64,000 nucleotides of DNA from Mycobacterium florentinum (GTDB lineage Bacteria; Actinomycetota; Actinomycetes; Mycobacteriales; Mycobacteriaceae), in the NCBI RefSeq assembly GCF_010730355.1, contig NZ_AP022576.1, forward strand, positions 2,170,001 to 2,234,000, given 5' to 3'. A model generated the notes under the pieces. It was not told the origin of the DNA. It searched no databases and saw only the letters and a program-made list of their open reading frames with translations. Of this stretch, positions 9,238 through 27,370 are shown one piece after another (positions within the stretch are counted from its first letter, which is position 1; every line of letters starts with the position of its first letter). Made by a program: the position numbers and the translations under genes.

Positions 9238-12200
9238 CTAGAGCAACCCGAGGAGTTGCAGGTCCGTGACGTATTTGACGATGATCGGCGCGGACACATG
9301 CGGGATGTCGTTGTCGGCCCCGATTTTGGCTTCCTGCACCGCGGCGCGGAATCGGTCGGTCGGCGCGGCGGACCCACGAGTGGGCACCGCAGGACGCACC
9401 TGCCGGAGGTCGCGAGACTGCAAGATCTGCAGCACCGTGTGCTTTCGCTGTCGATCGGGCAGCGCCCGCAGGCCGGTCTCAAACCGCTGCAACCATTCGT
9501 CGAAATCGTCGATGCGCTCGATGGCGTAGCCGGCCTCGATCAACCAGTCGACGTACGTGTCGAGCCCGATCCCGTCATCGTGCGGGTTCATCACGTGATA
9601 GGTCTGGAACCCGTCGACCATCTGGGCTCCTAAGGTGGCGATCGACTCGGCGACGAATTCGACGGGCAGCCCATCGAAATGGGCCCGCTGCCGGTTCCCA
9701 TTGGCATCGCGCTGGTAGAACGAACCGGGCGCAATGCCGGTGGCCACCACGCTGAGGACCATCCGCGTGACCACGTCCGAGACGTTGAGCTGGCCGACAA
9801 AACTCGTGTCGGCCAAGATCATGCCACTGCGGAACACCGAAACCGGAAGCCCGCACAAGTCGTTGGCCTCCCGCAGCAGCACCTCACCGGCCCATTTGCT
9901 ATTGGCATAACCGTTGACGGAACTGCCGTCGTTGAGTCGAGTCTTGCTGATGACCCGGATGTCGGCGGCCTCGGTGAACAACGACGGCTCAATCGGGTCG
10001 CCCACGTTGGCCGTGGACACGTAGCCGTAGGGCTTCAGTCTTGTGGTCAGCGCCAACCGAATTAGTTCGGCGGTACCCGCGACATTGGGGCCGAACAGCT
10101 CACTGTAGGGCAGCACACCGCTGACCACCGCGGCCGAATCGACTATCAAATCGACCGAGTCGGCTAGTTGCCGCCAGGTCCGTTCGTCGAGGCCCAGGCT
10201 GGCTAGGGCCTTATCCCCCGCGATGACCCGCAGATGGTCGGCGGCCAATTCCTGGAAGTGCGCCATCAGTCGCGGGTCGCCGCTATCGAAGATCTGCTCC
10301 AGCCGACGCTGAGCGTCTTCGTCGGTCTTGCCCCGGACCAGACAGATCAACGTGCCGTCGACCAGTTCGAGCTGCTCGAGCCATTGCAGCACCAGGTAGC
10401 GCCCGAGGAAGCCCGTCGCACCGGTCAATAAGACCGTCCGCACCTGCGCACTCGGGCCCGGCAGCGCGGCGGCCGCCGAAAGCGTTGCGGCGTCGATGAA
10501 TTTGTCCAGGGTGAGATCGGCGGCGTTGACCTCGGTGGGTTCGGCACCGTGCACCGTCACATAGCGCGGATCCAGGGTGTGGCGATCCACCTGCTGGCTC
10601 AGCGCGCTCACCGATGGCCCGTCGAAGAGGATGCGCACGGTGAGGTGTGTGTCGAGGGCTTTGTTGATCGCGGCGATCAGGCGCATCGCCGAAATGCTGT
10701 CCCCGCCGAGGTCGAAGAAGGAGTCGTCAACCCCGACCCGCTCGAGACCGAGTGTCTGGGCGTAGATGTCGGCCAGCGATTCCTCGACCGCGTTACTCGG
10801 GGCGCGGTACTCGCTTTCCCGGTATCGCGGTGCCGGCAAGGCGCGGGTGTCGAGTTTGCCGTTGACCGTCAACGGCAGCGCGTCGACGACGACGATCGCG
10901 GCCGGCAGCATGTAGGCCGGCAACCGCTTGGCCAGCGCGGTGCGCGCACCGGCGATGTCGACCGCCCCGGCCGCCGCTTCTATGATGTAGCCCACCAGAC
11001 GCTTGTCACCGGGGCGGTCCTCGCGCACGATTACCACCGCCTGATCCACGCCAGCCAAACCGCTTAGCGCAGCTTGGATTTCGCCCAACTCGATGCGGTA
11101 CCCGCGGATCTTGACCTGCTCGTCGGCCCGGCCCAGGTAGCGCAGCTGGCCGTCGGAACCCCAACACACCAAATCCCCGGTGCGATACATCCGCACCCCA
11201 GAAGCGAACGGACAGGCGACAAACCGCGCCGCCGTCAACCCCGCCCGGCGCAGATAGCCCAACCCCACACCGCGGCCGGCCACATACAACTCACCGACCA
11301 CCCCGGGTGGGACCGGCCGCAACCACGCGTCGAGCACGAACAACGCCGCGCCCGGTATCGGCACCCCGATGGGCACCACCCCGGCCCCGGCCTGCAGCGG
11401 CACACTGACCGTCACACACAGCGTGGTCTCGGTCGGCCCGTAGGCGTTGGTCATCACCCGCCCCGGCGCCCAACGATCCACCAATTCGACCGCGCACGGC
11501 TCCGCGGCCACCACCAAAGCCGCCGACTCCAAACCTTCCAGCGACAACGCCGATACCGCAGACGGGGTTTGATGCAGGACGGTGACTTGCTCGTCAATCA
11601 GCAAGGCCTGGAAGTCTTCTGGGAAGGCGGCCACCGACTCGGGGACGATCAGGAGCCGACTGCCATGAAGCAATGCACCCCAGATCTCTTCCACCGAAGC
11701 GTCGAACGCATAGGAGTACCACTGCGACCACACCTGCCCCGGACCCGACGGCAGACCGACATGCAACGGCTTCAACAGTTGAGTCACGTTGTGGTGAGTG
11801 GTCGCTACTCCTTTGGGCACACCCGTGGTGCCCGAGGTGTACACGATGTGGGCGACGTCATCGGCAGCGGGCACCGGCAGCGCCGCAGTGGAGTGCGTGG
11901 CGATAACGGGATCGTCGACATCAATCACCACCAGCCCGTGGCCATCAAACCGCGAAGCCAGTTCAGCGGTGCTGATCGCCGCGATCGGCGCAGCATCAGC
12001 GAGCATGAAGTCGATGCGCGAATCGGGCACCGCGGAGTCGATCGGTAGGTAGGCCGCCCCAGACTTCAGCACAGCCAAAATAGCCACGATCGCCTCGGGA
12101 GAGCGTGAAAACATCAGCGCCACACACTGACCCGGACCCGCACCCCGACCAACCAGCAAGTGCGCCAATCGATTAGACGCCTCGTCGAGCTCTCGATAGG

Positions 12201-13715
12201 TCATCGAGCGGCCCGCGCAGCTGATCGCCAACAACTCGGGCGTGCGAACCGCCTGTGCGGCAAACAATTCCGGAATCGACTCCCCGACCTCCGGCCGGGT
12301 CAACACCGCGCGGTTGCCCCAGTCGTCCAACCGCGCGATCTCACGTCCGTCGAGGAGGTCGATCGACGATAACCGCCGCAACGGATCGGCCGTCATGGCC
12401 ACCAACAGCCGCTCCAACCGATCGGCAAGTGCCCCAACGCTTTCCGCATCAAAAACATCGGTGCGGAATTCCACCGACCCACCGATCCCGGCGGGTGCAC
12501 CGTCCTCGGTCCAGCGTTCGGCCAGCGAAAACGCCAGGTCCATGCGGGCGCTCTGGGTATTTGCCTGCATCGGGATGATCTGTAGATCGCCCAAGGCCAG
12601 CCCCGCGGTGGGGTCGGTGCCCCATCCGGGCAGGTTCTGCCACACCAACCCGACCTGGACCAGCGGGTGACGGCTCATGGACCGGATCGGGTTGAGCCGC
12701 TCGACGAGCATCTCAAACGGCACGTCTTGATGTTCGAGAGCGTCCAGACTGCGAGCCCGAACCTGGGTCAATAGGTCAGCGACGGTGGGATCCCCGGCCA
12801 CTTCGACGCGCAGCACCAGCGTGTTGACGAAAAAGCCCACCAACTCGTCCAGCGCGGGATCATTACGACCGGCGATCGGAAAGCCCACCGCCACATCCGA
12901 ACTCGCGCTCATCTTCGACAGCAATACCGCGAGCGCCGCCTGGACCACCATGAAACTGGTCGCGTTGTGCTCGCGGGCCACCGCCCGTACTCGCTGCTGC
13001 AACTCCGACGGCCACTGGACCGTAACGCTCGACCCATGGAGATCGGCGACCGGCGGATAAGGCCGGTCGGTGGGCAGTGACAGCTGCTCGGGCATCCCCG
13101 CCAGTGCGTCCTGCCAATAGGCCAGCTGCGCGGAGATGGGGCTGTCGCTGTCGTCGAGATCCCCGAACTGGGTGTGCTGCCACAGCGTGTAGTCGGCGTA
13201 TTGCACCGGCAACGCGGCCCAACCGGGCGCCTGCCCCGCACACCGACTGGCATAGGCCACGCTCAGATCACCCACCAGCGGGTTCACCGACCAGCCGTCG
13301 GCGGCGATATGGTGCGCCACGGCGACAAGGACGTGTTCATCATCGGTGACCATGAAAAGCTTTGCCCGCAACGGGATCTCAGTCGCCAAGTCGAACGTGT
13401 GCCGCGCGGCTGAGTCCACCTCATTGCTCAACCGGGCCGGTGACCACCCGTCGGCATCGACCACAGCCCAGCCGAAGTCCGCTCGCTCGGGTGCCAGCAC
13501 CTCCTGGTACGGCACACCGTCACGATGCGGGAATACGGTGCGCAGCGATTCGTGCCGAGCCACCACATCGGCCAGCGCCGCGCCCAACGCATCGACATCG
13601 AGCCGCCCACGCAGCCGCAACGCCACCGCCATGTTGTACACCGGCGACGGCCCTGCAACTGGCCAAGAAACCACAACCGACTCTGGCCAAACGACAACGG
13701 AATCACCGCGGGCCG
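9238..13715 (-). other. NRPS module 4 and terminal thioester reductase: C-A-PCP-R
   Basis: The condensation domain (HHIAADG) starts just before the missing C at 13651. The adenylation domain at about 12290-10840 has [20 protein letters not shown] and NAYGPTETT; the pocket reads D-A-E-H-V-A-A-L-C-K, unassigned. The PCP Ser is in [10 protein letters not shown] near 10690. From about 10480 to the stop is a Lys2/CAR-type reductase: [16 protein letters not shown] binds NAD(P)H, and [12 protein letters not shown] supplies the Tyr/Lys pair. There is no thioesterase domain, so release should be reductive. Confidence 0.85.
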
Positions 13716-16700
13716 CTCGCCGGCCACCAACGGCGCCCGACCGCCCGCATGCACGCGAACCCGAGGCGCCAATTCCGAAATCGTTGGGGTGCCGAACAGG
13801 GTGCGCACGGCGAGGTGGGTGTCGAAAGTTTTGTTGATCGCCGCGATCAAGCGCATGGCCGATAGGGAGTCGCCGCCGAGGTCGAAGAAGGAGTCGTCGA
13901 TGCCGACGCGTTCGACGCCGAGTACTTGGGCGTAGATCCCGGCCAGGATTTCCTCGACCGCGTCGCTGGGGGCGCGGTAGTGGTCGACGTCGGAGTATTC
14001 CGGGGAGGGCAGCGCGCGGGTGTCGAGCTTGCCGTTGACCGTCAACGGCAGCGCATCCATCACGACGACCGCGACCGGCACCATATACGACGGCAGCCGC
14101 TGGGCCAGCTGGGCGCGGATCTCGGCCGGGTCCGCGGCCCCGGTCACATACCCGACCAGACGCTTATCACCCGGACGGTCCTCACGGGCGATCACCACCG
14201 CCTGATCCACGTGATCCAAACCGCTTAGCGCTGCCTGGATCTCACCAAGTTCGATGCGATACCCGCGGATCTTGACCTGCTCGTCGGCCCGCCCCACATA
14301 CCGCAGCTGCCCATCGGCACCCCAGGACACCAAATCCCCGGTCCGATACATCCGCGCCCCGGGCCCACCGAACGGACACGCCACAAACCGCGACGCCGTC
14401 AAATCCGGGCGCCCGACATAGCCGCCGGCCACCCCGGCACCGGCCACATACAACTCCCCGACCACCCCGGGCGCCACCGGGCGCAACCAGCCGTCCAGCA
14501 CGAAGAACGCCAAATGCGCCAACGGCACCCCGATCGGGCTGGTGTTGCTGTCCACATCGGCGTCCACGATCTCGCGGAACGACGCATGCACCGTCGTCTC
14601 GGTGATGCCATACATGTTGATCATCCGCGGCAATCCCGGATGATTGTGCAACCACGTCTGCAGCCGTTGCGGCTCCAACGCCTCCCCACCGAAGACCACG
14701 GTCTGCAACTTGAGCTGCTGACCCAGCTCGGGCTGCAGCGCGTCGGCGGCCTGCAGCGCGTAGAACGCCGAAGGCGTCTGGCTCAGCACGCTGACCTGTT
14801 CGCTGACCAGCAACGCATGCAGGTCTTCCGGCGAGCGGACCACGGCGTCGGGCACCACGACCACCCGGCCGCCGTGCAGCAGCGCACCCCAGATCTCCCA
14901 CACCGAATAGTCAAACGCCAACGAATGACACTGCGTCCACACCTGCCCCAGTTCCATCTCGGCGTCCAACGACTCCAACAACTGGGTCACATTGCGGTGC
15001 GTGACCGCCACACCCTTGGGCTTACCCGTGGTGCCCGAGGTGTAGATGATGTAGGCAACGTGATCGGCCGCGGGTATCGGCAATGCGGTGTTCGGTGCGG
15101 CGCCGATCGCCGGGTCCTCGACATCGAGGACCGCCACATCAGCGCCCTCCAGCCGCGCGCGCAGGTCCGCGGTGGTCAGGGCGGCGATGGGCGCGGAGTC
15201 CGACAGCATGAACTCCATCCGCGCCCCCGGATGCGCGGGATCCATCGGCAAATACGCCGCCCCCGTCTTCAGCACCGCCAGCAACGAGACGATCGCTTCG
15301 GCAGATCGGTTGAGCAGCACCGCCACCCGCTCACCCGGACCCGCCCCGCACCCGGATAGCACGTGCGCCAACCGGTTTGCGGCCTCGTCGAGTTCGCGGT
15401 AGGTCCACGACCCGTCTCCGCTGTTGACCGCCACGGCCTCCGGGGCGCGCGCGACCTGCGCGGCGAACAGTTCCGGAATCGACACCGGGGCGCTGGCGGG
15501 CAGCGTCAACACCTCCCGGTTGCCCCACTCCTGCAACCGCGCATGCTCATCACCATCAAGCAAATCAATCGACGACAACCGACGCGACGCATCAGTCGTC
15601 ATCAACACCAACACCCGCCGCAACCGCTCCACCAACGAGTCCACGGTCGCGACATCGAACACGTCGGTGCGGAATTCCACCGCCCCGCCGATCCCGGCCG
15701 GCGTGCCGTCTTCGGTCCAGCGTTCGGCGAGTGAAAAGGTCAGGTCCATGCGCGCGGTGTGAGTGTCCAGCGGCATCGGGGTGATCTGCAGATCACCCAG
15801 AGCCATCCCCGCGTCGGGGTCGTGATGCTGCCCGGGCAGGTTCTGCCACGCCAACCCGACCTGAATCAGCGGGTGACGGCTGAGGGATCGAACGGGATTG
15901 AGCCGCTCCACCAACAACTCGAACGGGACGTCCTGATGCTCATAGGCGGCCAGGCTGCGCTGACGTACCTGGTCCAACACCTCAGCGACGGTGGGATCCC
16001 CGGCCACTTCGACGCGCAGCACCAGCGTGTTGACGAAAAAGCCCACCAACTCGTCAAGAGCGGGATCATTACGACCGGCGATCGGAAAGCCCACCGCCAC
16101 ATCCGAACTCGCGCTCATCTTCGACAGCAATACCGCGAGCGCCGCCTGGACCACCATGAAACTGGTCGCGTTGTGCTCGCGGGCCACCGCCCGTACTCGC
16201 TGCTGCAACTCCGACGGCCACTCGACGGTCACGCTCGAGCCACGGAGATCGGCGACCGGCGGATAAGGCCGGTCGGTGGGCAGTGACAGCTGCTCGGGCA
16301 TCCCCGCCAGTGCGTCCTGCCAATAGGCCAGCTGCGCGGAGATGGGGCTGTCGCTGTCGTCGAGATCCCCGAACTGGGTGTGCTGCCACAGCGTGTAGTC
16401 GGCGTATTGCACCGGCAACGCGGCCCAACCGGGCGCCTGCCCCGCACACCGACTGGCATAGGCCACGCTCAGATCACCCACCAGCGGGTTCACCGACCAG
16501 CCGTCGGCGGCGATATGGTGCGCCACGGCGACAAGGACGTGTTCATCATCGGTGACCATGAAAGCTTTGCCCGCAACGGGATCTCAGTCGCCAAGTCGAA
16601 CGTGTGCCGCGCGGCTGAGTCCACCTCATTGCTCAACCGGGCCGGTGACCACCCGTCGGCATCGACCACAGCCCAGCCGAAGTCCGCTCGCTCGGGTGCC

Positions 16701-19700
16701 AGCACCTCCTGGTACGGCACACCGTCACGATGCGGGAATACGGTGCGCAGCGATTCGTGCCGAGCCACCACATCGGCCAGCGCCGCGCCCAACGCATCGA
16801 CATCGAGCCGCCCACGCAGCCGCAACGCCACCGCCATGTTGTACACCGGCGACGGCCCCTGCAACTGGCCAAGAAACCACAACCGACTCTGGCCAAACGA
16901 CAACGGAATCACCGCGGGCCGCTCGCCGGCCACCAACGGCGCCCGACCGCCCGCATGCACGCGAACCCGAGGCGCCAATTCCGAAATCGTTGGGGTGCCG
17001 AACAGGGTGCGCACGGCGAGGTGGGTGTCGAAAGTTTTGTTGATCGCCGCGATCAAGCGCATGGCCGATAGGAGTCGCCGCCGAGGTCGAAGAAGGAGTC
17101 GTCGATGCCGACGCGTTCGACGCCGAGTACTTGGGCGTAGATCCCGGCCAAGATTTCCTCGACCGCGTCGCTGGGGGCGCGGTAGTGGTCGACGTCGGAG
17201 TATTCCGGGAGGGCAGCGCGCGGGTGTCGAGCTTGCCGTTGACCGTCAACGGCAGCGCATCCATCACGACGACCGCGACCGGCACCATATACGACGGCAG
17301 CCGCTGGGCCAGCTGGGCGCGGATCTCGGCCGGGTCCGCGGCCCCGGTCACATACCCGACCAGACGCTTATCACCCGGGCGGTCCTCACGGGCGATCACC
17401 ACCGCCTGATCCACGTGATCCAAACCGCTTAGCGCTGCCTGGATCTCACCAAGTTCGATGCGATACCCGCGGATCTTGACCTGCTCGTCGGCCCGCCCCA
17501 CATACCGCAGCTGCCCATCGGCACCCCAGGACACCAAATCCCCGGTCCGATACATCCGCGCCCCGGGCCCACCGAACGGACACGCCACAAACCGCGACGC
17601 CGTCAAATCCGCCCGGCGCACATACCCCATGCCCACACCACGACCGGCCACATACAACTCCCCGACCACACCAACCGGTACCGGCCGCAACCAGGCGTCC
17701 AATACAAACAACGCCGCACCCGAAACCGGCGCACCGATCGGCACCACCCCGGTTCCCGCCTCGAGTGGCTCGCTGATCGCGACGTCCACCGTGGTCTCGG
17801 TCGGACCGTAAGCGTTGATCATTATCCGACCCGGCGCCCACCGGTCCACCAGCTCGGGCGGACATGCTTCACCGCCCACCACCAGCGCCGCAGACTCCAA
17901 ACCTTCGAGAGACAGCGCCGCCAAAGCAGAAGGGGTCTGGCTCAGGACACTGACTTGCTCGGCAATCAGCAAGGCGCGCAGGTCATCCTGGGCGCCGACC
18001 ACCGACTCCGGCAGCACCACGAGCCGCCCCCCATGCAACAACGCACCCCAGATTTCCCGGACTGAGGCATCGAATGCATAAGAATGCCACTGCGTCGATA
18101 CCTTCGCCGAACTCGGCGTTGTCAGGGCGGCATCCAGTCCCTGCATCAATTGGGTGACGTTATGGTGAGTGACCGCAACCCCTTTGGGGACACCTGTCGT
18201 TCCCGAGGTGTAAATAATATGGGCCAGGTCATCGGCGGCCGGCATCGCCGGCGCATAGCTGGGTTGGGCATCAACAACCGGGTCATTGACATCAATCACC
18301 GGCAGTTGGTGCCCGTCGAGCCGCGTTCGCAGTTCGGCAGCGCTCAACGCGGCGATCGGACGCGCATCACCAATCATGAACTCAATGCGCGCATCCGGTA
18401 CCGCAGGATCAAGTGGCAAATATGCCGCCCCCGACTTCAGTACCGCCAAAATCGCGACAATCGCCTCGGCCGACCGCGGCAGCAGCACCGCAACACACTC
18501 GCCGCGGCCAGCACCCGCAGCAATTAACAAGTGCGCCAGCCGATTAGCGGCTTGGTCTAACTCGCGGTATGTCAGCGACCGGCCCGCACAGGTTACCGCC
18601 ACCGCTTCCGAACTGCGAGACACCTGAGCAGCGAACAACTCCGGAAGCGACACCCCGACGACCGGCGCAGTCAACACCGCCCGATTACCCAACACATCCA
18701 ACCGAGCGCGCTCGCCGATATCAAGCAGATCCATCGACGACAACCGCCGCGACGAATCGGCCGTCATCGCCACCAGCACCCGCTTCAAACGATCAGCAAG
18801 AACCCCAACGCTTTCCGCATCGAAAACATCGGAGTCGTATTCGAGGCGCAGCAATAGTTCGGGGCCGGGCGTCGCTTGCAGAGTCAGTGGGTAGTGAGTG
18901 GATTCACGAGTAGTGAACTCCGTGATAGCGAGCTCGCCGAGTTCCACCGACGCCGCGGCGTCGATCGGGTAGTTCTCGTAAACGAAGAGGGTGTCAAACA
19001 ACTGGTGGTGGCCGGTGACGCGATGGATCTCGGTCAGCGCCAAGTGTTCATGGTCCAGCGTGCGCTGGTAAGCATTGTGCAGTTCGTCGAGTAGACCCGC
19101 GATTGTGGTCTGCGCGGTGACGCGTGCCCGCACCGGTACCGTGTTGATCAACAGTCCGACCATCGATTCGATCCCGGCGACGTCGGCTGTGCGCCCCGAG
19201 ACCGCGGCGCCGAACACCACGTCATGCTGTCCGGTCAGCCCCATCAGCAGCTGCGCCCAGCCGGCGCGCAAGACGGTATTGACGGTGGTGTGGTGCGTCC
19301 GGGCCAGCTGATCGAGAGCCCGAGTGATCGGCACGGACAACCGGAACGATTGCGCGCCTTGCTGTCCCAGCCGGTGCGTATGCGAGGCGCCCACCAACGT
19401 CGGCGTGTCGAATCCGGTCAGCGCCTCCGCCCAGACCGCGCGGGCGGAATCGAGATCCTGATCGGCCAGCCAGGTTACGAATCTGCGGTAGGGCACGGCC
19501 GCGGGCAGGTGCTGTTCGTTATAGACGGCAAAGATCTCGTGCAGCAGGATCGGCAGTGACGAGCCATCGAGCACGACGTGGTGGTTGGTGAGGACGAACC
19601 GGTACCGGTCAACGGCGGTTCGGACCAGCGCCGCCCGGAACACCGGCGGGTCGGCCAGCTCGCAGACCCCGGCACGTTCGCCGGCACACAACCGCTGGAG

Positions 19701-22700
19701 CTGCTCGTCGACATCGACCTGGTCGGCGCCGAGATCGACGTAGCGCCACGGCACCGCGGCGTCGGCCGGGATGATCTGCACGGGTGGATCGATCTCCGTG
19801 GAGAAGCGGGCGGCCAGATTGGGATGGCGGTTGACCACGGCTTGCACCGCCTCGCACAACCGCTGCGGATCAAGCGGGCCGGCGATGCCGATGCTCAGCT
19901 GAATCGCGTACGGATCGACATCGTTGCCGTGCGCGGCCGTGGCGTGGAAGAGCAGTCCCTGCTGTAGCGGAGTCAACGGCAAGACATCGGCAACGGGATA
20001 CTGCCGCTCGAGTTCGCCGATCTGCTGCTGGGTAAGACGCGCGGGGACGACATCCGATGGGCTCAGGCCGCCGCCCCCGCGGCGCACGTGCGCGCAGATA
20101 CCGGCCAGGGCCTCAAACCACAACTCGCTCAACCTGTTTGCCTGGTCATGGTCGACCACGGAGGGCGCCCAGGTCCACTGGGCCTGCAGCTGTGGACCCG
20201 CCTCAGTGACGAGTGTGCCGGCGTTGAGGGCCACGGTGTGGGTCAGCGGCATCGGCACTGCGGTCGCGACAGCGGTGGCCGACAAGCCGTTGGGGTCGGG
20301 CAGCCAGACATCGCCGGTCAGCTCGGACGTGCCGCCCAGCCGCCCCAGGTAGTTGAACAGGAGCGCCGGGTCGGAATCCCCCAGATTCACCTCGGTGTTC
20401 GCGTATCGCAACAGCCCATAAGTGATGCCCTCGGGGAGCGCTCGCAGCTGTTCTTTGGCGTCTTTGATCGCCACCCCCAGCGCCGCCTCGCCGGCGACTA
20501 CCTGTTCCCAGTTCAGCCCGCCAACGCTCAGCGCCACAGGGTACTTGGCGGTAAACCACCCCACCGTGCGCGATAGGTCCACCGTGGAGCTCAGCTCCTC
20601 GTGGCGCCCGTGACCTTCCACGTCAATCGCTATCGGCGACTTGGCGTTACCCAGCAACTGCGCAATCGCCAGCCCGAACGCGATCAACAAAACGTCTTGC
20701 ACGCCGGCATGAAACGCCGCGGGCACCTCGCTGAGCAGCATGCGGGTCGTCTCGGCGTCCAGCACCACGGACAAGTGTCCTGCGCCGGCATAGGTATCCG
20801 CATCGCTGTGCACCGCAGGCAATGCCGGCGGGATCGCCGCCACTTCCTGCCAGACCTGCTCGTGGGCAACGACTTCCGGGCGGTAGGCGTATTCGGTTAG
20901 CAATGACGACCACTTGACAAACGACGTGCCGCCCGCCGGCAACGCGATAGGCTGCCCGCCGCGGTGCAGAGACCATGCAATGTTGATGTCTTCCAACAAG
21001 ATTCGCCAGGAAACCCCATCGACGGCCAGGTGGTGAACAATCAACACCAGCTGACCGGTGGTAGCGACCCAGAGCGCGCTGAGCATGACGCCGGCATCCG
21101 GATTCAGCCGTGCCCGCGCCTCGACCAGCGCTTCATCGGACAACACGTCCACCGATCGCACGCACCCGCCGGCGTCCACCGAGCCCGGATCGGGCACCCA
21201 CAGCGACCATCCGCCGGCGCCATCGTCGTCCACGTGCAGCCGCAGCATGTCGTGCCGATCCAGCAGGGCCTGCAGGACGGCCACCACATCGGCCTCGCCC
21301 ACGCCGGCGGGAGCCTGCACCACCATGGTCTGGTTGAACTGATCGACCGGACCCTCAATGCTGTGCAGCCACCGCATGATTGGGGTCGCGACGACCTCAC
21401 CCACACCCACATCGGCCACGAAGTCGTCGGTGGACACCGTGGCAGCCCGGGCCAGCCGGGCCACGGTCTGCTCGACGAAGATGTCACGCGCACGGCACAT
21501 CACGCCGGCGGCCCGCGCCCGCGCCACAACCTGCAACGACATAATGCTGTCGCCGCCCAAGTCGAAGAACGAGTCGTCGATCCCGACCCGCGGTAGCCCC
21601 AGAACTTGGGCATAGATGCCTGCCAGAATCTGTTCGACCCCGTCGGCAGGGGCGCGGTATTTCCCGGCGGCGTATTCGGGCGCCGGGAGGGCACTGATGT
21701 CGAGCTTGCCGTTGTCCGTTAGCGGCAGCGCGTCAATGGTCACGATCGCCGACGGGACCAGGTAGGCGGGCAGCCGATCGCCGAGCCGGGTGCGGATCCG
21801 GGCGGGGTCGGCGGTGCCGGTGATATATCCGACCAGGCGCTTGTCACCGGCGCGGTCCTCGCGAGCGATCACCACCGCCGCAGCGACGCCATCCAGTGCG
21901 GCCAGGGCGGCCTGCACTTCGCCGGGTTCGATGCGGTGGCCACGGATTTTGACCTGCGCATCGCCACGTCCGAGGTAACGCAGTTGCCCATCGGGGCCCC
22001 AGGACACCCGGTCGCCCGTGCGATACATCCGTGTCCCGGGGCCGCCGTAGGGGTTGGCGACGAAGCGTTCCGCGGTCAGGTCGACCCGGCCCACGTAACC
22101 GTGCGCCAGCGCGGGCCCGCTCAAATAGAGCTCGCCGACCACCCCGACGGGAGCCGGGTTCAGGCGCGCATCGAGCACCAGCGCGCGCACCCCCGGAATG
22201 GGAGCACCAATGCCGATCGGCTGCCCCGGCCGAAGCGGCGTACTGCACGTGGCCCAGATGGTGACCTCGGTGGGGCCGTAGGCATTGAACATCTGCCGGC
22301 CCGGCACCCAGGCCGTGGCCAGGCCCTCCGGGCAGGCTTCCCCGGTGGTGATCAGGGTTTGCGCGCCGGCTAACCGGGCGCGATCCAGCGACGAGAGCAC
22401 CGTCGGGGTCAGTACCGCGACATCTATCCGCTGGTCGTACAGCAACGCCGTCAACGCCTCTCCGGCGGAGGCTTCCGGTGGCGCCACCACCAAGGTCGCT
22501 CCTGCACCCACCGCCAGCAACAGCTCGCCGACGGACACATCGAAGGTTGGCGAGGCCACCATCAGCACCCGCGCAGCGGGGGTCAGTCCGAACGCACGGT
22601 GGTGGTCGGCCACCCCGAGCAAACCGGCGTGGCTGACCGCCACCCCTTTGGGGACGCCGGTGGATCCGGACGTGAAGATCACATGGGCGGTGTTGTCCGC

Positions 22701-24491
22701 CCGTAACGGGGCCAGCCGGTCGGCGTCGGTGATGGGGTCCGCGGACCGCCCGGACACGTCCAGACCGTCGACGGACACCACCGGACGCGACCCGGCACCG
22801 GCCAGGGTGTCGCGGCCACGGGTCAGCACACACACCGCCGCCACCGTGTCCAGCACCGTTGCTATGCGCTCAACCGGATGGGCCGGATCTACCGGCACAT
22901 ACGCCGCACCAGCCTTGAGCACCGCCCACCAAGCCACAACCAGTTCCAGGCAGCGGTCCATCGCCACGCCCACCGCGCACTCCGGGCCGACCCCGGCCTC
23001 GATCAGCACCCGCGCCAACCGCGTGGACCGCTCGTCAAGCTCGCGATAGGAGACGCTCCGGGAACCGTCGATCACCGCCACCACATCGGGACCGGCCGCA
23101 ACCGCCGCGGCCAACAGCTGCGGCACCACCCCAACCGGTGCGGTCACCTCAGCGCCGGACCACGCCGACAGGACCAGATCACGCTCGCCGTGATCCAGGA
23201 CCGACACCTCGCCCACCACCACCGACGGATCCGCCACCAAGAGACGGTCGAACAGCGATTCCAGGCGGGCGATGTGCCCGTCGATCTCGTCGGCGGTGTA
23301 GCGCTCCGGATTCCACGCGAAGTGAACTCGCGGTGCGCCGTCACCCAGCCGTGGATAGATGTTGACCGCGACGTCTTGGATGGGGAAGTTGGTCAAGATG
23401 TTGCTGGTGGCCTCGGAAGACCCGAAATAGATCGGGGCCGCGAAGTCGAGAACGTTGACCACCGGACCGAACTCGACGTTCATGTCGGGATGAGTTCCAT
23501 CGCCGACGATCTCCGGGAAACGCCGAAACTGTTGATGCCGCAGTGCACCGATGACGGCCGTACCAACCCGATCAGTGACTGCACCGATGGTGTCGGCTTC
23601 GCAGACATCGATGATCAGCGGCACCATGTTCGACACCATGCCCGCACAGCTTTTCAGCGCCGCAGTCGTGCGCGCCGAAACCGGTAGTGACAGCGAGACA
23701 GTCTGCCGCCCGGTCGTTTTCGCGATGAACACCGCCATTGCCGCGACAACCCTCGCGACGTCGAAGGGGCCCTGCGCGTTCTCCGACAACCGATGCGTGC
23801 AGGCCAGCTCGCGCACCAGCGCGTGGCGCGGCGCCACCGACCGCTGCATCCCCGCCAGGTCCGTGACTTCCAGAGACCCGCGCACCACCGACTTCCAGTA
23901 CTGGGCATCGGCATCGCTGCGTGACGACTCCTGATACCTCTGATCCGCGGCACGGATCACGGCGAACTCCGAAAAATCGACTTCGCCGGTATTGGCAGGC
24001 GCTCCCGAATAGACGGCCGCGACGTGCCGCATGAAATTGTTGGCGCCATAGCCGTCCATCAGGACGTGGTGCACCCGCACGTAGAAGTAGGACAAGTTCT
24101 CGGCGACTCGCAGGAGCACGAAGTTCGTGAGCCGGTCACGGTCCAGATCGACCGGCCGACGGTAGTCGTCGTTCATCCAGGTGCGAGCAGAACCTACTGG
24201 GTCGGACTCGGTGCGCAGGTCAATACATTGCAGGGTTTGCGGAACCGAATGGTCGAGCACGAAAACGGGTTCGCCATCGACCAGGGATAGCCGAGCACAT
24301 GGTGTGCCGAACCGCGTTGCCGCCGATTCGCATGCGGCCATGAGCCTTTCAGCATCGACTTCGTGATCGATCTCGACGTAACCGGCAAAGTTGTACGGGA
24401 CTTCGGGTCGCAGTTCCTGGGCAGCCCATATCGACCGCTGAGCAGGGGTCAACGATCCCAACAGGTCCGGTTGCGCACCGTAATTGAGCAT
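9238..24491 (-). CDS. Four-module non-ribosomal peptide synthetase with terminal reductase (frame broken four times as given)
   Basis: As sequenced, the gene falls into overlapping pieces. Each break is explained by one missing base in a homopolymer: near 17207 (GGG for GGGG), 17071 (GG for GGG), 16561 (AAA for AAAA) and 13651 (CCC for CCCC). In every case the other copy of an internal 1.63-kb repeat has the full run. Adding four bases to 15,254 bp gives 15,258 bp, exactly 5086 codons, or one protein of 5085 aa. Domain order is C-A-PCP-E, C-A-PCP, C-A-PCP, C-A-PCP-R. It would assemble a tetrapeptide with a D residue at position 1 and release it by NAD(P)H reduction as an aldehyde or alcohol. 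It is transcribed after an MFS exporter and a formyltransferase preceded by an iron box, which suggests siderophore-type chemistry. No ornithine hydroxylase or MbtH-like gene is visible in the window. True pseudogene status cannot be excluded without reads. Confidence 0.9.
12776..14406. repeat. 1.63-kb internal NRPS repeat, copy 1
   Basis: This copy is nearly identical to 15982-17610. It covers the end of an A domain (A8-A10), a PCP and most of a C domain. It contains one of the four missing bases (13651) and the intact counterparts of the other three (14002-14005, 13865-13867, 13355-13358). A handful of substitutions near 12820, 13015-13045 and 13946 separate the copies. Confidence 0.9.
13716..16929 (-). 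other. NRPS module 3: C-A-PCP (C frameshifted)
   Basis: The condensation domain starts [18 protein letters not shown] and has HHIAADG; the missing A at 16561 splits it. The adenylation domain at about 15490-14030 carries [28 protein letters not shown] and [14 protein letters not shown]. The pocket residues read D-Y-W-S-V-G-M-V-H-K, close to the threonine code D-F-W-N-I-G-M-V-H-K, so Thr or a Thr-like residue is the best guess. The PCP Ser is in LGGDSLSAM near 13863. Confidence 0.78.
15982..17610. repeat. 1.63-kb internal NRPS repeat, copy 2
   Basis: The second copy is offset by 3206 bp at its left end and 3204 bp at its right end. The difference of 2 equals three deletions in this copy minus one in copy 1. 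It contains the missing bases at 16561, 17071 and 17207 and the intact counterpart (16856-16859) of the copy 1 deletion. Identity ends where the A domains of modules 2 and 3 diverge. Confidence 0.9.
16930..20049 (-). other. NRPS module 2: C-A-PCP (PCP frameshifted)
   Basis: The condensation domain at about 19990-18840 opens with [18 protein letters not shown] and has HHVVLDG; following an E domain it should be of the D-L joining type. The adenylation domain at about 18720-17220 has [20 protein letters not shown] and NAYGPTETT, and the pocket residues read D-A-R-S-V-G-A-V-D-K, unassigned. Two of the four single-base deletions (17207 and 17071) flank the PCP, whose [10 protein letters not shown] motif is therefore out of frame as given. 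Confidence 0.75.
20050..24491 (-). other. NRPS module 1: C-A-PCP-E
   Basis: The starter condensation domain ([20 protein letters not shown], active-site HHVLMDG) lies at about 24491-23180. The adenylation domain at about 23120-21700 has [20 protein letters not shown] and NAYGPTEVT. By alignment to the GrsA pocket I read the specificity residues as D-V-G-V-I-T-A-I-W-K, which I cannot assign. The carrier Ser is in [10 protein letters not shown] near 21547. The epimerisation domain at about 21400-20100 has [16 protein letters not shown] and FNYLGRLGG, so residue 1 should be D-configured. An N-terminal C domain implies that residue 1 is N-acylated or otherwise capped. Confidence 0.8.
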
Positions 24492-24771
24492 CTGATGACG
24501 AACTTTCTATTTGGGCCGGCGTCCCGGCGCTCGCAACCTTAGCGTCGTTGAGTTGGCTTGCGGCACAACATAAAAAGGAACAATCATCCGGTTCGACCCG
24601 CAGCCAGTTTCGCACGCAAGCCGCTGTCGTCGTCAAATAGATTGTGCTGCATCGTGTTACCTCATCGCCGAGTGAAGACGTCGCGATAAGGCGCGACGGG
24701 AGTAGTCACGCCCAGCTCGATCGCCGCAGCGGAATGTTCGGCCGCGCCGGAGTCTCTGGTCGATAGCCGCA

Positions 24772-25710
24772 CTATGTGTGGCTATCCAGGTAGCCCCCGC
24801 GTCGAAAGAATTTCTCCCCATTGCATTCCACTCCGTCCGACGAACGGACCCGAGTGATCAGCAGGCCGCGGTTGCCTCCCCGACGCGTGTTGGGCCCGCA
24901 CGCCACCACACCGCCCTCTTCCTGCACCATCACCCGACCCGGCGTACCGCCGTAACAGGCATCGGAAACGCGCGCCTCGAGGATCTCGATCCGCTCCCCG
25001 CGATAGAAGCAGTAGGCCCGGGGATAGGGATCGGACAGTGCGCGCACGAACCGCTCGAGATCCTCGGCCGGCCAGCTCCAGTCGATCAAACTGTCGCGCT
25101 CCGAACGCTTGTGGAAGTACGACCGTTCAGACTTGTTCTGCGGCCGAAAGACCGCGACACCGGACTCCAGCGCAGTCAGCGCTTCCGCCAGCACATCAGG
25201 GATCAGGTCCATTCCTCGCAGTACTAATTCTGTGCCGGTGTCGGTGGGGCCGATCGGCACCGCCCGCTGGACCAGAATGTCCCCGGTGTCCAGGCCGTCA
25301 TCCATCCGGTGCACGGTCAATCCGAACTCGGACTCGCCGCTGATCAAGGCCCACAGCACCGGTGAAAACCCGGTGAACCTCGGCAACAACGAATCGTGAA
25401 AGTTCAGGGTTCCGTGCGGCGGAAGGTTGTACAGTTCCGCCGGCATCCGGTAGTACCAGCTGTTGACGACGATGACATCGGGTTCGGCGCGCTTGACCAG
25501 GTCGATAGTTTCCGCATCAACCGTCTCGGTGACATGCAAAGGGATGCCGTGCTTGCGCGCGAGTTCGTCGACCGGTGCCGACCAGATGGCCTTATAGGAC
25601 TCGTCGCTGGCCGGGTGGGTCACGGCAAGCATGACTTCATGCTCGAGATCAATCAACGCCTGAAGGGTCTTATGGCCCCAGGCCTGGAACCCGAAAAACA
25701 CAATGCGCAT
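24772..25710 (-). CDS. Formyltransferase of the Fmt/FxbA type
   Basis: A 312-aa N10-formyl-THF-dependent formyltransferase. The catalytic triad context is complete: NFHDSLLPRFTG (Asn, His) near residue 100 and MDDGLDTGDILVQ (Asp) near 138. A C-terminal Fmt-like domain begins near LIDWSWPAEDLERFVRAL. It is probably not housekeeping fmt, which sits elsewhere with def or fmu. Stand-alone relatives formylate hydroxyornithine in exochelin (FxbA) and coelichelin pathways or amino sugars. The ATG at 25710 starts the Rossmann strand MRIVFFGFQ. A candidate IdeR box lies 73 bp upstream and the NRPS 280 bp downstream on the same strand. It probably formylates an NRPS building block or the peptide N-terminus. 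Confidence 0.88.
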   Translation of the reverse strand: MRIVFFGFQAWGHKTLQALIDLEHEVMLAVTHPASDESYKAIWSAPVDELARKHGIPLHVTETVDAETIDLVKRAEPDVIVVNSWYYRMPAELYNLPPHGTLNFHDSLLPRFTGFSPVLWALISGESEFGLTVHRMDDGLDTGDILVQRAVPIGPTDTGTELVLRGMDLIPDVLAEALTALESGVAVFRPQNKSERSYFHKRSERDSLIDWSWPAEDLERFVRALSDPYPRAYCFYRGERIEILEARVSDACYGGTPGRVMVQEEGGVVACGPNTRRGGNRGLLITRVRSSDGVECNGEKFFRRGGYLDSHT

Positions 25711-25782
25711 CAAGCAAAACCCACTAACTCGTTGCCCGCCCGGCACGGGCTCTTGCTAAGCACCGCCTGCCAGCGGAAGATG

Positions 25783-25801
25783 TTACCTTAGCCTCGCCTA
25801 A
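25783..25801 (-). promoter_or_regulatory. Candidate IdeR iron box upstream of the formyltransferase-NRPS unit
   Basis: Read on the minus strand, TTAGGCGAGGCTAAGGTAA matches the mycobacterial IdeR consensus TTAGGTTAGGCTAACCTAA at 15 of 19 positions, including both TTAGG...TAA ends and the AGGCTAA core. It lies 73-91 bp before the formyltransferase ATG and 38 bp after the MFS stop. A possible -10 (TAACAT) overlaps its downstream edge, the usual position for iron repression. Confidence 0.7.
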
Positions 25802-25838
25802 CTCAGCGAACGGACCGTTGTAGTTAGAAAGGGGCGGA

Positions 25839-27311
25839 TCAACTCCCGGGCGTTTGCGGCTGCCCCGTTGGTTCTCTCGACAGAAATACCGCCGAGACGC
25901 TCGCGCCAACCGCCAGTGCGGCGGCCGCGGCAAACACTGTCGTGTAAGCGTGCGCCAGCTGCGCCCCGCCACCGCCTTCGTGGCGATGGAGCTGATTGGT
26001 CAACAGCACCGCCATCAACGCGGCCCCGGCGGCGCTGCCCACCTGATCGTTGACGCTTCGCAGCGTTGCACCCCGAGCAATCTGACGCGGCGCCAACGAC
26101 TGCACGCATGCCGCCGACAGTGGTGTCGCGGCGCACCCAACACCGATGCCCACAATCATCAGGCCGGCCAGCAACGTCGGTGAGTAGGCCGCTTGCCGGG
26201 CGACACCGAGGGTGAAGATGCCCAGGCCCGCCGCCATCAGCGGGAAGCCGATCTTGACAATCCTGCCGGGCCCGAACTTGTCCATGAGTGCCCCGGCAAC
26301 GGGCGTGCTCACTACGACGCCGATGCCCATCGCGATCAGGTGCAATCCCGACTGCATCGGGGTCTGGTGCAGCGCGACCTGAAAATAGCTCGGAACTACC
26401 AGCAATATCCCTACGTAAGTGACCGCGAAGATCAGCAGCGTTACGTTGGCCTGCCTGACCACCTGGTTCTTCAGCAGTCGTAGGTCGATAAGTGGGTGAT
26501 CCGTGCGACACCAGGCGTGCAAAACAAAGGCGGCGATCAACGCCAGGCCGGTAATCAGGGGGATCAGCACATGGCGATCGGCGATCGTGTGACGCCCCGG
26601 AATGGCCGATACCCCAGCCAGCAGGGTCGCCATGCCGGGTGACAGCAGCAGCGCGCCGGTGACATCGAGTGCCTCCGACGGTGCGCTACGATCCTTGGGA
26701 AACATGACTGCCGCGAGCACGAAGGCGATCAGCCCGATCGGCAGGTTGATCAGAAATATCCACTTCCAGCCGTAGGTGCCGATCAACCAGCCGCCCAGAA
26801 TCGGTCCGCCAACGGGGCCGAGCAAGAAGGGAATTGCTCCTACCGCGATCAAGCGCCCGAGGCGCTTGGGGCCTGACTCGCGGGTCAAGATCACATAGCT
26901 CAGCGGTGTCATAATGCCGCCACCGGCTCCCTGGAGCACGCGGAAAATGATGAGCAGCAATATGTTTGGAGCCACCGTGCACAGCAGCGAGGCCAGCGTG
27001 AACAACAGGACACCGCCCATGAACAGCCGCTTGGTGCCGAACCGGTCGGCCGCCCAACCGGTGATCGGGACGACGGCAGCAAACGCGAGCATGTAGCCGG
27101 CCATCGTCCATGAGACGACGACCTGAGTAGATCCGAATTCGACGGCAAATGTTCGTTGGGCGACGGCGACAGCGGTACCGTCCAAAAATCCCATCATGCT
27201 GGCCAGGCCGCACACCGCACCGATCCGGAGCAGCCTGGCGTCGAGCTTGTCGGGATAGTCGGCATCACCCACGCCCGATTGCCCGATGGTTGCCGAAGAC
27301 GCGTCGTTCAT
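25839..27311 (-). CDS. DHA2-family (EmrB/QacA) MFS drug/metabolite exporter
   Basis: A 490-aa, 14-helix proton-driven exporter. Family motifs are visible: FLDGTAVAVAQRTF near residue 42 (helix 1 motif D1), GWAADRFGTKRLFMGG (motif A), RVLQGAGGGIMTP (motif B) and GPVGGPILGGWLI (motif C, antiporter). The ATG at 27311 gives MNDASSATIGQ; an ATG at 27326 adds five residues. It precedes the formyltransferase and NRPS on the same strand, so it is the likely exporter of their product. No iron box is visible before it, so it may have its own promoter. It is divergent from glutathione peroxidase. Confidence 0.9.
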   Translation of the reverse strand: MNDASSATIGQSGVGDADYPDKLDARLLRIGAVCGLASMMGFLDGTAVAVAQRTFAVEFGSTQVVVSWTMAGYMLAFAAVVPITGWAADRFGTKRLFMGGVLLFTLASLLCTVAPNILLLIIFRVLQGAGGGIMTPLSYVILTRESGPKRLGRLIAVGAIPFLLGPVGGPILGGWLIGTYGWKWIFLINLPIGLIAFVLAAVMFPKDRSAPSEALDVTGALLLSPGMATLLAGVSAIPGRHTIADRHVLIPLITGLALIAAFVLHAWCRTDHPLIDLRLLKNQVVRQANVTLLIFAVTYVGILLVVPSYFQVALHQTPMQSGLHLIAMGIGVVVSTPVAGALMDKFGPGRIVKIGFPLMAAGLGIFTLGVARQAAYSPTLLAGLMIVGIGVGCAATPLSAACVQSLAPRQIARGATLRSVNDQVGSAAGAALMAVLLTNQLHRHEGGGGAQLAHAYTTVFAAAAALAVGASVSAVFLSREPTGQPQTPGS

Positions 27312-27370
27312 AGCGTTGCCGAGCATATAGACGGCGGCCGAGGGCGGTTTGCCGACGTTGCGTTAGCGTC

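Follow-up and report, generated by a model that had tools for sequence, protein, structure and literature searches.

What might a stand-alone N-formyltransferase gene (fmt) contribute when it lies behind a candidate iron box and beside a nonribosomal peptide synthetase (NRPS) that ends in a reductase? The question is raised by a 64,000-nucleotide stretch of Mycobacterium florentinum DNA (NZ_AP022576.1, positions 2,170,001 to 2,234,000; hereafter the window), in which a major facilitator superfamily (MFS) gene, an IdeR-like box, fmt and the NRPS form a unit on the minus strand at 9238-27326. The reading preferred here, with a probability of roughly 0.52, is that IdeR would repress the unit, that the formyltransferase would make N6-formyl-N6-hydroxylysine by way of the mycobactin hydroxylase MbtG and that the NRPS would build a reductively released, siderophore-like peptide. 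Sequence comparison shows the iron-box-controlled fmt-MFS-NRPS-reductase unit to be both real and conserved. It covers 248 genomes sampled from the genus, including that of the window (G000); sampled genomes are labeled Gnnn, and the loci or stretches compared Lnnn.

An earlier sequence-only reading had placed the three genes on one strand, and this arrangement is confirmed in the window: all lie on the minus strand, and the domain matches agree. The MFS gene (25839-27326, 495 aa) encodes an exporter of the DHA2/EmrB type (TIGR00711, 416 bits). The fmt product (24772-25710), 312 aa from its ATG, carries PF00551 (Formyl_trans_N) and PF02911 (Formyl_trans_C) and belongs to a TerH-like clade. The NRPS as a whole spans 9238-24491, with four adenylation (A) domains, condensation (C) and thiolation (T) domains and a terminal thioester reductase (R) domain. 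A gap of 280 bp separates fmt from the NRPS, and the two are predicted to be co-transcribed. The proposed link between them is borne out by relatives and plasmids, where the genes form a tight fmt-MFS-NRPS operon. This operon is chromosomal in many slow growers, and fmt at 86.8% identity also occurs on four plasmid records from M. avium and M. intracellulare. Both plasmids inspected, pMAH135 and pFLAC0070_1, carry the operon with a 16/19 box ahead of fmt. On pMAH135, whose fmt is 86.8% identical to that of the window, fmt and the MFS gene are 23 bp apart, the MFS gene and the NRPS overlap by 1 bp and the NRPS is one 5081-aa frame.

Iron control is suggested by the box at 25783-25801, which lies 72 bp before the fmt start codon and reads TTAGGCGAGGCTAAGGTAA on the minus strand. 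Boxes are scored as matches out of 19 to an IdeR consensus; this one scores 15/19, as the sequence-only reading had it, and is the sole site of at least 14/19 in the window (0.20 expected under an order-2 Markov model). Sites of at least 14/19 stand within 200 bp of fmt in 15/15 fmt-NRPS loci (L008-L022), 14 of them at 15/19 or better, and in none of 1375 random windows or 91 upstream regions of other open reading frames (ORFs) used as controls. Since the box is conserved in relatives, a chance origin is untenable. Its retention across orthologues supports iron control, in which IdeR would bind the predicted site and low iron would derepress the unit. For comparison, the box before G000's own mbtI-like gene scores 16/19.

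Other settings of fmt also have boxes, with less clean controls: 11/11 for fmt in mycobactin loci (random windows 11/1037, other ORFs 8/62), 7/7 for Nocardia fmt loci (15/659 and 12/69) and 4/5 for orphan fmt genes (4/476 and 4/61). In a hydroxyornithine-linked fmt clade the count is 3/10 (1/940 and 4/67). The orphans, which belong to the same clade as the window gene (L037, L039, L043, L045 and L046), have neither an NRPS-reductase nor mbt genes around them in the flanks covered. NRPSs that share the window's starter C domain and have no linked fmt show the box in 0/13 starts (best score 12/19), so the box travels with fmt. A separate case is a 10417-aa NRPS with the window-type starter C domain (L205-L206, G094:C115), which has neither an iron box nor the terminal DAEH-coded module described below, in a genome with no fmt match.

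The identity of the formyltransferase bears on its substrate. Matches to fmt at E <= 1e-30 occur in 74 of the 248 genomes: a close type (at least 72% identity) in 55, including one fragment, two partial matches and one gene with an internal TAG, and a distant type alone (53-61% identity) in 19. A tree of 59 rows separates the two types with support 100/100; in it loci where a hydroxylase adjoins fmt, together with their kin, stand for the hydroxyornithine-linked clade in place of a named M. smegmatis FxbA, and seven Nocardia nocobactin-type loci stand for the TerH-like clade in place of TerH itself. The window fmt falls on the same side of this branch as the seven Nocardia loci, to whose genes it is 72-81% identical. 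According to the available part of PMC7413640, Nocardia nocobactin loci carry either the N-acetyltransferase NbtH or the formyltransferase TerH, and Nocardia gamkensis NBRC 108242 makes N-formyl nocobactin derivatives as detected by mass spectrometry; the fmt of that strain (L031) is 79% identical to the window gene. Because of the TerH-like loci and the N. gamkensis compounds, N6-hydroxylysine is the likely substrate of the clade, and by analogy the window enzyme is likelier to act on it than on hydroxyornithine. The sequence-only reading had assigned fmt to the exochelin/coelichelin type. That assignment is not supported: the gene sits in the mycobactin/nocobactin-linked TerH-like clade, separated at 100/100 from the hydroxyornithine-linked one.

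The close type occurs in four settings: reductase-NRPS loci, mycobactin-type loci, Nocardia nocobactin-type loci and alone. Its 34 mycobacterial rows form one group (100/97), within which 16 of the 17 fmt-NRPS rows group together with modest support (89/94); the remaining row, a metagenome contig (L052), lies outside this group, and the approximately unbiased test does not reject one origin for all 17 (p-AU 0.49). Genes of this type also lie inside mycobactin-type loci of M. asiaticum, M. angelicum, M. simulans, M. helveticum and M. deserti (L023, L027, L032, L035, L036 and others). These five species may make a formylated, nocobactin-like mycobactin, for which no name was met in the open-licence PMC papers searched. 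The group-B mycobacterial loci were considered as exochelin clusters and ruled out: their flanks hold HrcA-DnaJ-RsmE-like and MbtC/MbtT/MbtG-like genes and are thus of the mycobactin type.

The A-domain codes of the window NRPS, read by alignment, are DVGVITAIWK (A1), DARSVGAVDK (A2), DYWSVGMVHK (A3), which we take to be Thr-like, and DAEHVAALCK (A4, core at 11263-11868); single positions of distant domains are uncertain in such readings, position 239 of the MbtF type being W or Q by alignment. The A4 code is found only in genomes with fmt. The last A domain carries DAEHVAA[LM]CK in 13/13 fmt-linked NRPSs with that domain in view, and does so on both plasmids read. The code occurs twice in the two-module NRPSs of G164 (M. 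triplex), G110 and G143 and once in that of G074; among longer NRPSs it occurs twice in G046, G242, G132, G088, G102, G092 and G169 and once in the window and G061. It is absent from all 25 readable A domains (one more is unreadable) of fmt-unlinked NRPSs that either have this starter C domain or come from the same genomes.

When the 248 genomes are searched with the A4 core, the 34 best matches (E <= 2.1e-96) come from 18 genomes, each of which has fmt. DARS modules account for two of these matches (G046 and G061), and the DAEH code is confirmed by reading in each of the 18 genomes; with 12 candidates scored per genome, a missed copy is possible. Of the next-best matches 14 were read, from G122, G116, G186, G227, G054, G128, G094 and G012 (no fmt), other loci of G143 and G242, and G232; none of the 14 has the DAEH code, the nearest being DAETLAAVCK and DAESLAGICK. 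Codes are read in place of a 75% identity cut for the core, which was dropped because fmt-negative G122 reaches 75% and the G061 DARS module 76%.

A candidate source of hydroxylysine is present in the genome. The sequence-only reading saw no ornithine hydroxylase or MbtH gene in the window, and indeed neither PF13434, the hydroxylase family, nor MbtH has a match in its 64 kb; MbtC-, MbtT- and MbtG-like genes have none in the 34 kb searched for these three. In the complete genome G000 there is no strong match to PF13434 (E <= 1e-30), the best of 14 weak matches scoring 45 bits. One of the 14 is MbtG, beside MbtH, the sole N-hydroxylase identified there. MbtG is present in 19/19 genomes queried, all picked as carriers of an fmt-linked NRPS. 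Strong PF13434 matches occur in 19/19 genomes with the distant fmt alone, 18/55 with the close type and 12/174 without fmt.

Within the NRPS the domain order is C1-A1-T1-E-C2-A2, then the rest of C3-A3-T3, then C4-A4-T4-R, where the epimerization (E) domain is presumed from its position and an HHxxxDG-type motif. The R domain (9241-10428; TIGR01746, 315 bits) keeps its YxxSK motif, which upholds the claim that the NRPS ends in a reductase. Its top match in the PDB is 4dqv (M. tuberculosis Nrp, 674 bits), and it matches the carboxylic acid reductase (CAR) 5mso with 664 bits. Asp at the CAR Asp998 site was considered as a predictor of alcohol release, a rule on which nothing was found in the open-licence PMC papers searched. 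The site is Gly in the window and Gly, Asp, Ser or Ala in relatives; it is Asp in the reductase of G000's own glycopeptidolipid-type NRPS, whose product is presumably an alcohol. Given this variation, reductive release is predicted for the window NRPS as either an aldehyde or a primary alcohol. The glycopeptidolipid-type locus lies at ~1.09-1.13 Mb of G000:C1 (L201, L238), where an NRPS whose codes are Phe-like and Thr-like is accompanied by a reductase, an MbtH and MmpL-like proteins.

The MFS protein would serve export. In 18 of the 22 distinct fmt-linked NRPS loci, window included, a homologue with 64-79% identity stands either ahead of fmt or in the interval that separates fmt from the NRPS; it is not at the loci of G242, G132 and G074, and for L052 the upstream side was not covered.

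The proposed pathway can be put together from these parts. Low iron would switch on the IdeR-repressed unit, and fmt would formylate N6 of the N6-hydroxylysine supplied by MbtG, which is encoded elsewhere in the genome. The terminal DAEHVAA[LM]CK module, and in most relatives a second such module, would load N6-formyl-N6-hydroxylysine alongside other residues, with C1 acylating or otherwise capping the first residue. Reduction by the R domain would free the chain as an aldehyde or a primary alcohol, and the MFS protein would export a presumably iron-binding product, a second siderophore-like compound beside mycobactin. Iron control, the link of fmt to the NRPS, reductive release and the lack of a strong ornithine hydroxylase are thus carried over from the sequence-only reading, while its exochelin/coelichelin-type fmt is given up; no earlier description of such a pathway was found in the open-licence PMC papers searched, and the predicted substrate moves from ornithine to lysine chemistry.

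Several observations weigh against this reading, above all the state of the NRPS in the window's strain. The four A domains and the R domain of the predicted four-module enzyme are present, but not in the single gene that the sequence-only reading described, which missed that the reading frame is broken in at least three places, near 17.2, 16.6 and 13.7-14.1 kb. Piece 1 (16725-24491) loses its frame after A2, piece 2 (13428-16559) loses it again after T3 and piece 3 (9238-13674) carries C4-A4-T4-R in an open frame that reaches upstream to 14163; the unrepaired open frames are 16728-24506, 13431-16583 and 9241-14163. All breaks lie inside or beside a 2.96-kb direct repeat, whose two copies (11575-14511 and 14784-17715) are 87.5% identical. 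An NRPS interrupted in this way makes product formation by this strain doubtful, and the copy is either decaying or locally mis-sequenced. We see an even chance that the unit of this strain is a decaying remnant without a product. General poor assembly is not the explanation, because a 10398-aa NRPS frame is open elsewhere in G000, and signs of decay are seen in other genomes as an fmt with an internal TAG (G011), an fmt fragment (G031) and an fmt-linked NRPS split into two ORFs (G143). Against decay stand the intact fmt, box and MFS gene. The breaks moreover fall within or beside a near-identical repeat, a likely place for assembly errors, and a local sequence error there is possible. Seven of the eight relatives compared have a single-frame fmt-linked NRPS (2563-6124 aa), and a decayed copy in one strain would be compatible with the pathway at the family level. 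The 10398-aa frame, at ~4.05-4.07 Mb of G000:C1 (L240), has repeated Phe-like codes.

Other points on the same side concern the chemistry. A single DAEH module is present in the window, against two in 10 of the 12 relatives read. Its product would therefore carry no more than one formyl-hydroxamate, which is poor for a siderophore. The co-occurrence of fmt and the DAEH code partly reflects operon linkage and common descent. The code alone does not indicate a formyl group, because its His278 is shared with MbtE-type codes of acetyl-type loci and of G000's ordinary mycobactin locus; His278 was ruled out as a mark of formylation, being carried by nocobactin-type loci with a GNAT N-acetyltransferase and no fmt. 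The presence of MbtG is a falsification test passed and counts as weak support, since to our knowledge MbtG is general in the genus.

Three further explanations assign another role to fmt or to the peptide. The idea that fmt formylates N5-hydroxyornithine and the NRPS makes a hydroxamate peptide of the exochelin/coelichelin kind is in keeping with a stand-alone formyltransferase of the same superfamily, and five of the 18 DAEH-code genomes do have a strong PF13434 hydroxylase, a count that also tells against the lysine-based pathway. The absence of such a match from G000, the position of fmt outside the ornithine-linked clade (100/100) and the lack of a DINYWGGIGK-type A domain in the window NRPS make this highly improbable, and the exochelin-type reading was set aside on the fmt tree and the hydroxylase search. 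The peptide might instead be formylated and regulated by iron without carrying it, as a lipopeptide or a signalling peptide. Some NRPSs that lack an iron box begin with this starter C domain too, fmt-linked loci range from two to five modules, and the flanks compared show no uptake gene conserved alongside the unit; the first and last of these points also count against the preferred reading. Iron chelation is favored by the conserved IdeR-like box as well as by the hydroxylysine-type fmt clade, and we regard a non-iron role as improbable.

Alternatively, fmt could serve mycobactin in trans, yielding a formylated mycobactin, while the adjoining NRPS makes an unrelated lipopeptide. The same fmt clade occurs inside nocobactin/mycobactin-type loci of Nocardia and several mycobacteria, and orphan fmt genes with a box exist (4/5). 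GNAT and fmt are both missing, within the stretch fetched, from the nocobactin-type loci of G147 (Mycobacteroides sp. CBMA 271), G088, G092, G169, G190, G173 and G217, so fmt could also act in trans in these seven genomes, a further difficulty for the preferred reading. On the other side, G000 carries only an ordinary MbtE (code DVGHPGFVNK), whose best match to the nocobactin-type MbtE core has E 1e-77, compared with <= 1e-103 for the nocobactin type itself. On pMAH135 the nocobactin-type locus itself includes a GNAT N-acetyltransferase along with a SagB-type dehydrogenase, the fmt-linked NRPS starting ~10 kb further, and a GNAT fills the same slot in G046, G074 and G214; fmt is therefore not needed at these four loci. 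With the tight fmt-MFS-NRPS operons and the DAEH link also opposed to it, service to mycobactin appears unlikely, and formylation of hydroxylysine for the adjoining NRPS remains the preferred account.

The distribution of GNAT and fmt was also surveyed in 40 nocobactin-type mbt stretches (L243, which is pMAH135 40000-69000, and L244-L283), six of them picked for carrying fmt. Ahead of the MbtE homologue, 24 stretches have a GNAT, 5 have fmt, one (L283) has both and 10 have neither; L023 also has both. This pattern largely parallels the exclusivity of NbtH and TerH reported in Nocardia. Nocobactin-type MbtE was tried as a marker for fmt and is not strict, matches of at least 71% being present in many fmt-negative genomes as well.

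If the preferred reading is correct, a second iron-regulated siderophore-like pathway, for which no name was found in the open-licence PMC papers searched, is encoded in several slow growers and on plasmids of the M. avium complex, and the A4 module is a clean test case of an A domain with a possible preference for a pre-formylated monomer. A broader proposal, which we hold only tentatively, is a new mycobacterial siderophore class: reductively released N6-formyl-N6-hydroxylysine peptides made by IdeR-controlled fmt-MFS-NRPS operons, with hydroxylysine borrowed from mycobactin synthesis, two to five modules reshuffled between species, dispersal by M. avium-complex plasmids (pMAH135 among them) and DAEHVAA[LM]CK as a new formyl-hydroxylysine code. 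The available part of PMC4324632 lists five mycobactin-like genes on pMAH135 (MAH_p43, p44, p47, p48 and p49) and reports that isolates from pulmonary disease yielded pMAH135 genes more frequently than those from HIV-positive patients did; its main text does not contain the word formyltransferase. This plasmid, linked to pulmonary M. avium disease isolates, would gain an undiscussed iron-linked unit. In M. avium subsp. paratuberculosis, MAP3740-3746, comprising NRPSs and the thioester reductase MAP3742, are a predicted siderophore maker according to the available part of PMC4810606.

Among known systems, the Nocardia nocobactin-type loci with a TerH-like formyltransferase share with the window the fmt clade and the iron box before fmt, and for N. 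gamkensis the available part of PMC7413640 reports hydroxylysine N-formylation by mass spectrometry. Their fmt lies beside MbtG-like, MbtT-like and NRPS/polyketide synthase genes, whereas that of the window adjoins a reductase-terminated NRPS with another A code and no MbtC- or MbtT-like gene in the 34 kb searched. Exochelin and coelichelin pathways likewise combine a stand-alone formyltransferase with an NRPS under iron control; the window unit departs from them in its fmt clade, in the lack of a strong hydroxyornithine monooxygenase match in the genome and in its reductive release. Reductase-terminated mycobacterial NRPSs such as M. tuberculosis Nrp and glycopeptidolipid Mps resemble the window enzyme in the R domain, which is nearest to Nrp, and differ in having no counterpart to its linked fmt, IdeR-like box and DAEHVAA[LM]CK terminal module. 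Another close system is pMAH135 from M. avium subsp. hominissuis, which has the same fmt-MFS-NRPS operon and differs in that its 5081-aa NRPS is unbroken.

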